Positions 60,654 through 64,000 of a DNA stretch of 64,000 nt are shown here, in pieces (positions within the stretch are counted from its first letter, which is position 1; each line of letters opens with the position of its first letter). The notes beneath the pieces were generated by a model. That model worked only from the letters and a program-made list of their open reading frames with translations. It did no database searches and had not been told where the DNA came from. Location of the stretch: the NCBI RefSeq assembly GCF_023983475.1, contig NZ_CP092712.1:2790001-2854000 (forward strand). The letters are read 5' to 3'. A program made the position numbers and the translations under genes. This DNA is from Aliivibrio fischeri ATCC 7744 = JCM 18803 = DSM 507 (lineage in GTDB: Bacteria; Pseudomonadota; Gammaproteobacteria; Enterobacterales; Vibrionaceae).

Positions 60654-62012
60654 ATGACTACGCATTTTGATTATATCTGTATCGGCGGTGGTTCAGGCGG
60701 TATCGCATCTGCAAACCGTGCATCAATGTACGGTGCAAAAGTGGCACTGATCGAAGCTCAAGATCTTGGCGGTACGTGTGTAAACGTAGGGTGTGTACCT
60801 AAAAAAGTAATGTGGCACGGTGCTCAAGTTGCTGAAGCCATTAATCTATACGCTGAAGATTACGGCTTTGATGTAGAGCTAAAAGACTTCAAATGGAACA
60901 AGATGATTGAAAGTCGCCAAGCTTACATTGGCCGCATTCATGAATCTTACGATCGCGTACTTGGTAATAACAAAGTAAACGTAATCAAAGGCTTTGCAAA
61001 GTTTGTTGATGCAAAAACCGTTGAAGTAAACGGTGAGCACTACACAGCGGATCATATTCTTATTGCCGTTGGCGGTCGTCCAACCATTCCAAATATCCCT
61101 GGTGCAGAATACGGTATTGATTCAAACGGTTTCTTTGAACTGACTGAACAACCAAAACGCGTTGCAGTTATTGGTGCAGGTTACATTGCTGTAGAAATCG
61201 CAGGCGTTCTTCACTCTCTAGGTACAGAAACTCACCTATTCTGCCGTAAAGAATCACCACTACGTAGCTTTGACCCAATGATCATCGATACGCTAGTTGA
61301 AGTAATGAATACCGAAGGCCCAACACTTCATACTCACTCGGTACCAAAAGAAGTAGTTAAAAAAGCAGACGGCAGCCTAACGCTTCACCTAGAAAACGGT
61401 AATACACAAAACGTTGATACGCTAATTTGGGCTATCGGTCGTCACCCAGCAACGGACGCTATCAATCTTGATAAAACGGGTGTTGCGACGAACGATCGCG
61501 GTTACATCAAAGTGGATGAATACCAAGAAACAAACGTGAAAGGCATCTACTGTGTTGGTGACATCATGGAAGGCGGCATTGAGCTGACTCCTGTTGCGGT
61601 TAAAGCAGGTCGTCAACTTTCAGAACGTTTATTCAATGGCAAAACCAATGCAAAAATGGACTACGATTTAGTTCCTACGGTTGTATTTAGCCACCCACCA
61701 ATTGGTACGATTGGCTTAACAGAGCAAGAAGCTGACGAACAATACGGCAAAGAGAACGTGAAAGTGTACACATCAGGCTTTACTGCAATGTACACAGCGG
61801 TCACTAAGCACCGTCAACCTTGTAAGATGAAACTAGTATGTGCAGGCGAAGACGAGAAAGTCGTTGGTCTACACGGTATCGGTTTCACGGTTGATGAAAT
61901 GATCCAAGGTTTTGCAGTAGCAATGAAGATGGGCGCAACTAAGGCTGATTTCGATGCCGTTGTGGCTATCCACCCGACAGGTTCTGAAGAATTTGTTACT
62001 ATGACACGTTAA
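60654..62012 (+). CDS. gor: glutathione reductase
   Basis: Gor reduces glutathione disulfide with NADPH. The 452-residue protein has the FAD motif GGGSGG, redox-active disulfide [13 protein letters not shown] (about 41-53), the NADPH motif [13 protein letters not shown] followed by Arg for the phosphate, and the C-terminal HPTGSEEF with the catalytic His. A good ribosome-binding site (GGAGAG) precedes the ATG. It ends 95 bp before the recombinase genes and is the last core gene in the window. Confidence 0.97.
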
Positions 62013-62059
62013 TGTAGAAATACATAAAATACACGTTTGTAAATCTGGAAAATAAAAAT

Positions 62060-62090
62060 TCACTGACTATGCTGTATGTATCGTCAGTGA
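62060..62090. repeat. inverted repeat ahead of the recombinase genes
   Basis: TCACTGAC (62060-62067) and GTCAGTGA (62083-62090) are perfect inverted copies with a 15-nt spacer, 18 bp before the recombinase ATG. It could be an operator, a recombinase binding site or a weak gor terminator. Confidence 0.6.
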
Positions 62091-62107
62091 TATTTTCTAG
62101 GTGAGCA

Positions 62108-63433
62108 ATGACTTTATTAATCCAATCCAGTGATGTTTTTAAGAAAACAGAACTACACATCAAAAATGATGGTTCTTACCATTGCACTCCATTCAAAGGG
62201 AATATTGGTTCTCTTCCGACTCTATTTAATCAAGATGGAGAATTTCTTCACGAGCCAAATAGCTACCTCTTTTATCTTAAAGCCATTAAAGGCGCTAAAG
62301 ACCTAAATCCATGCTCTCAGGCTTTACTAAAATACTATCAATTTCTAGAAGTCGAACAATTAAAGTGGGATCACTTTCCCCCAATCAAAAGACTAAAGCC
62401 TACTTATCAATTTCGTTCATACTTACTCAAGTCGATTAAATCTAGAGAATTAGCACATAGCACTGCTAATCACTATATGAATCACATCAAGAATTATTAT
62501 CTATGGGCTATGAGCGAAGGATATCTAAAAATTAAAAGGGAACAAGAAGCTCCATTTAAAATAGAATTAATTAACGTTAATAACCTAGGAATGTTGGCAC
62601 ATATCAAACCAGTGTTTACAGTCGAAAGTAGTGATCTTCGAATCAAAGTACCTAGAGATAGCACCTCAAAAAATATTCGCCCTCTCTCTCCTTTAACTCA
62701 AAATTCACTTGATTTATTAATATACTCTCTACCCTATGCTTCAGAAGAATTGAGACTACAAGTACTACTTTCTATAGACACAGGAATGCGAGTTGAAGAA
62801 GTTAGTACATTCACCCTAGATGCATTACACACCGCAACTCCCATAGCTGAGAGTCAGCACCGTTATGAAATAACCTTGTGCCCTCAAGCCACTGGAGTTC
62901 AAACTAAATTCGATAAACAAAGACGTATTGAAATCTCTGTCGATTTACTTCAAGCCTTGCGTAAATACCAAGCGTCTGAGCGCAGGTTAATTAGAGCCAA
63001 TAAATTATATACAAAAATAAAGCAACTTAGCGTCAATGAAGTATTACTAAATAATAAAACTATAGCAATTCTAGAACAATGTAGACGCCACGAACCTTTA
63101 TTTATCAGCCAACAAGGTAACCCTGTTACAAGTGAGACAGTAAAAGCCAGATGGTCTGAATTAAGAATTCATATTCAACAAATAAATGAAACATTCAAAT
63201 ACCGATTTCACGATCTTAGAGCGACTTACGGAACATATCGACTAAATGATTTATTAGAGGCTAACTTAGGAACGATAGAGTCCTTAGAGCTTCTTATGGG
63301 ATGGATGGGACATAAAAACGAAAGCACCACTTGGAAGTATCTGCGTTTCCTCAAGCGAAAAGAAATATTCAAGGTAAAATTTGGTATTTTAGATTCTATC
63401 ATGCACGAAGCTATAGGTGATGAATATGAATAA
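62108..63433 (+). CDS. tyrosine recombinase/integrase (first of a tandem set)
   Basis: The 441-residue protein has an N-terminal SAM-like core-binding region (about 60-165) and a C-terminal catalytic domain (about 195-425). The catalytic set is complete: Arg228 (DTGMRVEEVS), a likely Lys near 275, His368 and Arg371 (HDLRATYGT), His402 (GWMGHKNESTT) and Tyr411 (WKYLRFLK). The next ORF starts inside its last codons (8-bp overlap), so the two are translationally coupled. Such tandem recombinase operons mark RIT, Tn554-like and Vibrio strand-biased integrative elements. It sits just after gor and transcribes away from it, consistent with an element boundary at 62013-62107. Confidence 0.9.
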   Translation: MTLLIQSSDVFKKTELHIKNDGSYHCTPFKGNIGSLPTLFNQDGEFLHEPNSYLFYLKAIKGAKDLNPCSQALLKYYQFLEVEQLKWDHFPPIKRLKPTYQFRSYLLKSIKSRELAHSTANHYMNHIKNYYLWAMSEGYLKIKREQEAPFKIELINVNNLGMLAHIKPVFTVESSDLRIKVPRDSTSKNIRPLSPLTQNSLDLLIYSLPYASEELRLQVLLSIDTGMRVEEVSTFTLDALHTATPIAESQHRYEITLCPQATGVQTKFDKQRRIEISVDLLQALRKYQASERRLIRANKLYTKIKQLSVNEVLLNNKTIAILEQCRRHEPLFISQQGNPVTSETVKARWSELRIHIQQINETFKYRFHDLRATYGTYRLNDLLEANLGTIESLELLMGWMGHKNESTTWKYLRFLKRKEIFKVKFGILDSIMHEAIGDEYE

Positions 63434-64000
63434 AGTGACTTACCTAAGTGGATGGGATAAGGACTTATATTTTTTAATGGATGTTAGTAACAATCGGTAT
63501 TGTGATTTCAATCGATTATTCTATAAAGGAGTCCCTACCACCAAAAGTTTACACAAAAAAAATACCTTCAAGCCAGCGAATCGAGACAACTTTATTTTTC
63601 AACTCATAGAAGAGTATGAACAAAAAAAAGAAGAAGGAGTTTCAGATAGTACACTTTATCACTTGTTTTATAGCATAACTAATTACATAAAATGGTGTGA
63701 TAGCGAATGCATCAATCCATTCAATAAAAATTCTATAGAAAGCCATTTTCAGTATCTTTTCGAGCAAGTGAGGCTTGGTGACCTAAAAAATACAAGCTAC
63801 AACCGAAAAAGGTCTAATCTGTTAGTTATTTTTCGCGATTACCTCGACCTACCTGCCAACTGGTTTCGAGATATACCATCAGTTGGTCGAGATCAACTGG
63901 AACCGTTCGAAGCATATACGAGAAGTGATTTAAATCAACTTCTTCCATTTTTAAGGCAACTTTTTAATCAGACCTCTAAACAATTCCTTAAAAACCCCAA
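63426..64000 (+). CDS. second recombinase-like protein, N-terminal part (cut by window edge)
   Basis: The ORF opens with ATG at 63426 inside the end of the first recombinase gene and stays open for 191 codons to the window end. It starts MNKVTYLSGWDKDLYFLMD. The segment SDSTLYHLFYSITNYIKWC, followed by a basic NTSYNRKRSNLLVIFRDYL stretch, is typical of the SAM-like core-binding domain of tyrosine recombinases. No catalytic residues can be seen because the C-terminus is missing. It might be a catalytically dead recombinase-fold partner, as found in some tandem sets. Confidence 0.75.
   Translation, partial: MNKVTYLSGWDKDLYFLMDVSNNRYCDFNRLFYKGVPTTKSLHKKNTFKPANRDNFIFQLIEEYEQKKEEGVSDSTLYHLFYSITNYIKWCDSECINPFNKNSIESHFQYLFEQVRLGDLKNTSYNRKRSNLLVIFRDYLDLPANWFRDIPSVGRDQLEPFEAYTRSDLNQLLPFLRQLFNQTSKQFLKNP

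Follow-up and report, generated by a model that had tools for sequence, protein, structure and literature searches.

The window analysed here (the whole stretch of 64,000 bp, G000:C1:2790001-2854000, from the genome G000) holds a tyrosine recombinase gene behind gor, the gene for glutathione reductase, at its right end. What has entered the chromosome at this position, where does it begin, and what has become of the end of gor? A first-pass annotation took the region for part of a mobile element with a non-tRNA target, and the target proves to be the end of gor. The features of the locus are as follows.

60654..62012, + strand: gor ORF as found; the final 16 nt (61997-62012) belong to the element
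61991..61996, + strand: 6-bp fingerprint ATTTGT, the central 6 bp of the gor attB, adjoining motif C
61997..62017, + strand: left terminal motif C, TACTATGACACGTTAATGTAG, encoding a replacement gor ending and stop
62060..62090, + strand: conserved hairpin (fold z -3.06) between the new gor stop and intA
62108..63433, + strand: intA, ordinary tyrosine recombinase, 441 aa (Pfam Phage_integrase, E 3.8e-10)
63426..64000, + strand: tfp, start of a 586-aa ORF (589 aa from an upstream GTG), truncated by the edge of the window
Outside the window, L003:11187-13235: intB (ORF 3), second recombinase, 682 aa
Outside the window, right of intB: srap, 152 aa
Outside the window: right end C', an imperfect inverted repeat of motif C, ending in GTA

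Boundaries and core genes of the element

The stretch 62000-64000 is present twice in the genome with 100% identity, in the window and on a second contig (chromosome 2). A comparison of 58 kb around each copy gives a single gapless identical block of 15,418 bp, from window position 61996. The element itself is 15,417 bp long; it begins with TAC at window 61997 and ends with GTA at G000:C1:2867413, and the extra T at the left edge of the block reads as chance sharing. The second copy is located at G000:C2:187894-203310. The imperfect inverted ends are TACTATGACACGTTAATG and TACTGTCACAGGTAAGTT. The boundary had been expected in the 95-bp gap behind gor (62013-62107). It lies instead inside the gor ORF, as the copies are identical from 61996 and motif C starts at 61997.

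The gene order at the left end of the element is intA-tfp-intB-srap, the four-gene core described for the strand-biased circularizing integrative elements (SEs) of Vibrio (PMC10214605). The intA gene starts 95 bp past the gor stop (62012) and encodes the complete tyrosine recombinase that the first-pass annotation had recognized. With the ATG at 63426 taken as its start, the second ORF shares 8 bp with intA; it leaves the window, also as annotated. The reading of these two ORFs as tandem recombinases needs correction, however: ORF 2 is Tfp, and the second recombinase is IntB. A profile search of both proteins, proposed at the time, returned Phage_integrase for IntA and only a SAM-like N-domain match below the Pfam cut-off for Tfp (E 2.6e-5, 25 bits against 27). 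Extension to the right revealed both the third ORF of the recombinase operon and the cargo predicted on that side.

Residues R228, H368, R371, H402 and Y411 of IntA and R328, H468, R471, H495 and Y504 of the long IntB are kept in all 23 sequences compared (22 relatives, out of 36 fetched loci, plus the element of the window); from their motif context they are probably the catalytic positions. The conserved residues of Tfp in the same 23 sequences, compared by eye, include no complete R-H-R-Y arrangement. IntB has no Pfam match at E 0.1 and no match in the phage collection.

The element resembles SE-6945 and SE-6283 in gene order, in the R-H-R-Y residues of IntA and IntB, in the C/C' repeats, the GTA end and the 6-bp rule (see below), and in having a Vibrionaceae host (PMC9345347, PMC10214605). 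Its size is close to the published median for the class, 15.7 kb (PMC10214605, PMC9345347). On the other hand, in a comparison that covers the SE-6945 proteins, IntB shares only 25% identity with that of SE-6945 (from pSEA1) over the 388 aligned positions (E 2e-26). The insertion sites differ as well: SE-6945 is described at yjjNt, insJ and the yaaA promoter, whereas SE-6283 interrupts bcp and brings a complete bcp copy with it (PMC9345347, PMC10214605). Here the site is gor, and the tip of the element replaces only the last gor codons.

Two copies and their 6-bp footprints

The gor copy and the chromosome-2 copy coexist in G000. Their outer flanks are unrelated, and identity halts at the SE termini. 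The chromosome-2 copy sits in a TRAP-transporter gene. When its flanks are joined, with the 6 bp AAAGTT, they form one open frame of 427 residues (a TRAP permease, by eye), and the second copy therefore breaks a gene.

In published SEs, the left 6 bp of the donor end up to the right of the new copy (PMC9345347, PMC10214605). The gor copy has ATTTGT on its left and GTGCTT on its right; the chromosome-2 copy has AAAGTT on its left and ATTTGT on its right. By the published rule, the shared ATTTGT would make gor the donor and chromosome 2 the daughter; the other two 6-mers, GTGCTT and AAAGTT, differ. G000 is the one genome with both of two copies placed, and the direction is read from that single pair; a set 6-mer is expected by chance in about 1 of 4096 cases, by our estimate perhaps a few times more often in AT-rich DNA. 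By the same rule, the gor copy itself would have come from an unseen donor with GTGCTT on its left, a 6-mer that is absent among the other copies whose left 6-mer was read. A second donor-daughter link is possible between a plasmid copy in V. alginolyticus (L094), with ACGCAT on its right, and the near-identical copy L071 (G231:C3), with ACGCAT on both sides.

The comparison of footprints, an already published method (PMC10782965), was extended to the relatives. A gor-type 6-mer was defined as RTTYGT, a pattern that by estimate about 0.1% of random 6-mers fit. Such a right footprint is found in 5 of 24 gor copies (L063, L064, L070, L084 and L118), or 6 of 25 if L101 is counted, a copy with its left end beyond the contig. 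It is also found in six non-gor copies, those on chromosome 2, V. anguillarum p292, pMAO6, pSNUTY2, pMT14 and a Salmonella IncC plasmid, which gives 6 of 10, or 6 of 14 with the four umuC-type copies. The contrast between 5/24 and 6/10 gives a Fisher P of 0.045, and that between 5/24 and 6/14 a P of 0.27; these statistics are weak, and related copies are not independent. The pMT14 copy is ambiguous, with GTTTGT on both sides, and its neighbor L063 could thus stem from either kind of donor.

These counts leave out L085 (register one base off, GTTTGT plus one A), L127 (left flank not gor, although the right flank resembles the gor tail; footprint AGCCAA), and the loci without a placed right end: L054, L057, L065, L073-L075, L078, L082, L086, L098, L099, L104, L106, L108, L109, L112-L114, L116, L117, L119, L121, L122, L124-L126, L128-L130 and L146. 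The right ends of L092, L093, L096, L097 and L145 were set by a looser pattern and are less sure.

Read with the SE rule, the footprints suggest that gor was the donor of several plasmid copies, and some other site that of most of the 24 gor copies. The five gor copies with a gor-type footprint indicate that gor-to-gor copying, or donors with a like 6-mer, also occur. Since an occupied gor should refuse a second copy, an alternation between plasmids and gor fits the footprints, though it is not proven by them.

Similar right footprints were observed at six of the gor copies of a second clade (L076-L083), namely TGTGAT, TGATGA, TATGAG, TATGAC, TGATGC and AATGGA. TATGAG is reported for SE-Pda04Ya311 as well (PMC10782965), and a common non-gor donor site is possible.

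Could the same observations have a different source? A cut-and-paste integrase island of the ICE or IME kind, placed by chance after gor, would have an ordinary tyrosine recombinase such as IntA and would prefer a site, as seen here. It would not explain the SE four-gene core, the different 6-mers on the two sides (ATTTGT and GTGCTT) with no shared att repeat, or an identical second copy that coexists with the one at gor, and no mobilization gene is found among the Pfam matches of the element's proteins; we consider such an island very improbable. A RIT or Tn554-type element is more improbable still. Several recombinase-like genes in tandem would suit either, and Tn554 shows a similar 6-bp behavior (PMC10214605). 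The RIT archetype, however, has three tyrosine recombinases, all with the catalytic tyrosine, and Tn554 has TnpA, TnpB and TnpC without a counterpart of Tfp (PMC10214605), while the element here has a Tfp, and one in which no complete set is seen. Among the three families named by the first-pass annotation, the SEs of Vibrio are therefore retained and the other two are set aside. The 100% identity of the two copies would also follow from a recent homologous duplication, in place of transposition. This has an equally slight chance of being correct, given that the identity stops at the SE termini, the outer flanks are unrelated, and the chromosome-2 flanks join into an open frame.

Islands in tRNA genes likewise replace the 3' end of their target gene, and islands that replace a 3' end typically have a long duplicated att site. 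SGI1 at trmE is a further island that enters the 3' end of a gene (PMC8409611). In comparison, the element at gor shows the marks of SE copying, with a 6-bp spacer and a coding tip, and has no long duplicated att site.

The end of gor and its recurrence as an insertion site

The C-terminus of Gor is EEFVTMTR in the window and EEFVTMR in the native protein, the tip encoding VTMTR* against VTMR*. In G057, with a gor that is 97% identical, the site is empty and reads GAAGAATTTGT-AACGATGCGATAGTCT. The window reads GAAGAATTTGT, the element, GTGCTT and AACGATGCGATAGTCT, so that the right flank resumes the native tail AACGATGCGATAG as in G057. The gor stretch was found in 13 of 14 same-genus genomes (that of the window counted). 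In 11 of the 12 others the gor end is uninterrupted (VTMR*) and runs into like sequence, over the 40 nt read; the remaining one, G053, also ends in VTMR*, but has a different insert behind it. No IntB match at E<=1e-10 is present among the 13 other genomes of the genus. In this comparison with empty sites, suggested by the first-pass annotation, the outcome that it had named as refuting, the same two genes after gor in all Aliivibrio and no empty sites, did not occur.

The insert in G053 (G053:C1:2923550-2927475; L043/L052/L087) is about 3.9 kb long and lies between two gor tails. Its ORFs look secreted, by eye. The end of gor may be a hotspot for more than SEs.

The gor frame closes soon after the junction in every gor copy with a readable left end, 25 in Vibrionaceae and 10 outside the family. 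In all 24 gor copies with both ends placed, GT followed by motif C encodes VTM (or VTL), with the stop reached within five residues: VTMTR*, VTMTG*, VTMRG*, VTM* or VTLR*. The control, GT followed by C' in reverse complement, never encodes VTM (0 of 24) and meets a stop that early in 4 of 24. Beyond the right end, the leftover native tail encodes VTMR* in all 24 copies, a count that is partly built in, since right ends were located by demanding a gor-like tail or a C'-like motif; the contrast between C and C' is free of this bias.

Motif C might resemble the gor tail through the constraint on a recombinase site alone, with no selection to restore gor. Motif C must pair with the gor attB, and TAC and some further positions are common to C, C' and attB, so recombinase binding could account for part of the likeness. 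But C' works as a core site for the same enzymes without an ATG, and in 20 of 24 copies without an early stop, and tips with different letters (TACCATGTAG, TACCCTTAGGTAG and TACTATGACACGTTAA) all close the frame at once. The coding property of C therefore looks selected, with a possible contribution from core-site likeness, and we regard site constraint alone as unlikely, though a serious alternative.

A conserved hairpin is located between the new gor stop and intA. Five of its pairs show two-sided changes in a set of 18 sequences, pair 26-44 alone in nine of them. The set consists of the window and 17 of 28 relatives, all within the window's clade; the 11 omitted include near-duplicates and Buttiauxella, judged too different to align. 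The hairpin is followed by TTTTTTT in Motilimonas and by TTTTTTTT in Buttiauxella. In the window the tail is ATATTTTC, with a poor T-run, and a scan with a terminator consensus calls no canonical terminator in the window, the hairpin included. For these two reasons a terminator role is stated conditionally: the hairpin may be a terminator- or attenuator-like structure that stands in for the gor terminator, displaced 15 kb downstream.

IntB matches at E<=1e-10 are present in 80 of 296 Vibrionaceae genomes. From the strongest of these, 34 loci were fetched, to which the two of G000 were added (36 in total); the unfetched include several further draft-genome copies, some fragments and weaker matches. 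The left flank is unreadable in two (L074 and L078, which start at or inside the element). The gene directly upstream is gor in 25 of the other 34, a share that holds for strong matches only. Of these 25, 16 belong to the window's clade and 9 to a clade with IntB about 30-34% identical. A scan for Srap across 84,980 species, with one genome per species, yielded 32 loci, about half of them apparently in the same genomes as in the IntB search. Outside Vibrionaceae, the left flank could be read in 12 loci, and gor is upstream in 10 of them: four in Shewanella, two in Aeromonas, and one each in Motilimonas, Arsukibacterium, Pseudidiomarina (counted although motif C itself was not located there) and Buttiauxella. 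The exceptions are L106 (Shewanella) and L127 (Proteus); L126 is unreadable.

In a tree of IntB with 57 rows, gor residents (34) are interleaved with other residents (23). There are 14 label changes, at least 13 of them forced by strong branches, and 11 of 500 shuffles were as low. Copies at gor occur in both deep clades, and SE-6945 and a second SE core of pMT14 fall outside. The tree carries a long-branch warning; a single gor-targeting origin is thus plausible, but not established. The IntB of that pMT14 core is 60% identical to that of the pSEA1 SE, and its tree label (SEpMT14_rraBtype) is unchecked, so that it need not be the published rraB/traN element.

IntB relatives at E<=1e-20 are found on 60 plasmid records, 50 of them typed conjugative, and twelve plasmids were fetched to read the element ends. 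One plasmid subclade sits at the start of umuC-like genes, where the joined flanks give MFALVDA..FYCSAEQVF frames (L071, L094 and L097; gene name by eye). Among the umuC-type copies (L094, L071, L097 and L115), IntB is near-identical in L094 and L071, and L115 is placed by flank likeness only. Plasmid pAQU1 holds a gor-type SE remnant (L147 12001-13379) with the 3' part of intB and a 152-aa srap-sized gene, next to the same neighbor genes where pMT14 has the full core. SE-Pda04Ya311 and SE-VpaV493, to which our element is likened by description, are similar in that they represent SEs on chromosomes and pAQU-type plasmids, and footprints served there to recognize separate events; their sites, in contrast to gor, are near traN and in rraB (PMC10782965).

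SEs in gor are mentioned neither in the main texts of PMC10214605 and PMC9345347 (terms gor and reductase), whose supplements with further termini may hold them, nor in the titles of the literature listed. The term glutathione is absent from the main texts of PMC10214605 and PMC10782965. The class is known, while its gor-mending lineage and the cycle outlined below are largely what we infer.

Taken together, the observations are best explained, with a probability of about 0.9, by SE copying with gor as the donor, a tip that mends gor, and excursions once gor is full. By analogy with published SEs, IntA, Tfp, IntB and Srap would copy one strand of the element together with its left 6 bp into a circle, the donor staying in place; the circle would then insert at a new site, with the 6 donor bp on the right. 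At gor, the element would enter behind the codons for HPTGSEEFV, motif C would supply a near-native ending and a stop codon, and the hairpin may replace the displaced terminator, so insertion should cost the host little. With gor occupied, new copies would have to go elsewhere, to chromosome 2 here and to plasmids in other strains, and plasmids could bring the element into cells whose gor is vacant.

A broader proposal, which we put forward tentatively and at somewhat less than even odds, is that gor is the ancestral home of a gammaproteobacterial SE lineage (IntB pairs down to about 30-34% identity) with a 3'-repair cassette of coding tip, stop and hairpin terminator. Footprints would be a one-step memory of the previous residence in a two-phase cycle, silent in gor, with excursions to plasmids or other sites once it is full and a return, in a new host, to a gor that is vacant. 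If this is true, the lineage would enter a widely conserved core gene and repair it, and its 6-bp scars would tell where a copy resided before; SE movement could then be traced from genome sequence alone and the copy-out model tested.

Cargo and neighboring islands

The cargo encodes a 265-aa protein (no Pfam match at E 0.1), a DEAD/ResIII helicase, a 180-aa protein, an Xre-type HTH protein, a RES-domain protein with a HEPN/RES N-domain match below the cut-off, an AAA ATPase (best PADLOC model Ppl, partial), a HATPase protein and a response regulator with a TCAD9 match. These look like candidate conflict or defense genes; no complete known defense system and no resistance gene is recognized among the Pfam and PADLOC matches. 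The module of helicase, 180-aa protein and HTH protein was considered as a replication helper of the SE and rejected: helicase matches at E<=1e-60 occur in at least 108 of 296 family genomes, and four same-genus genomes (G010, G024, G044 and G065) have a helicase match without an IntB match.

To the right of the element (G000:C1 about 2867508-2870740; L003+L004 23509-26740) there is a 3.2-kb insert that is absent from G057 and flanked by two copies of the gor terminator sequence. It encodes a DNA methyltransferase, a GmrSD_N protein (best PADLOC models NsnA and PD-T4-2_A) and a HEPN protein. The right flank holds candidate defense genes, as does the cargo.

A second duplicated island of 21,676 bp, 100% identical, is present once on each chromosome (G000:C1:1741140-1762815 and G000:C2:737834-759509). 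It contains a helicase gene with an internal TAG and, by eye, TrlF-like and type I restriction-like genes. Its end block has ORFs of 457, 198, 814 and 784 aa; the first matches Pfam Phage_integrase, and the other three have no Pfam match above the cut-off. This island is possibly another family of copying elements.
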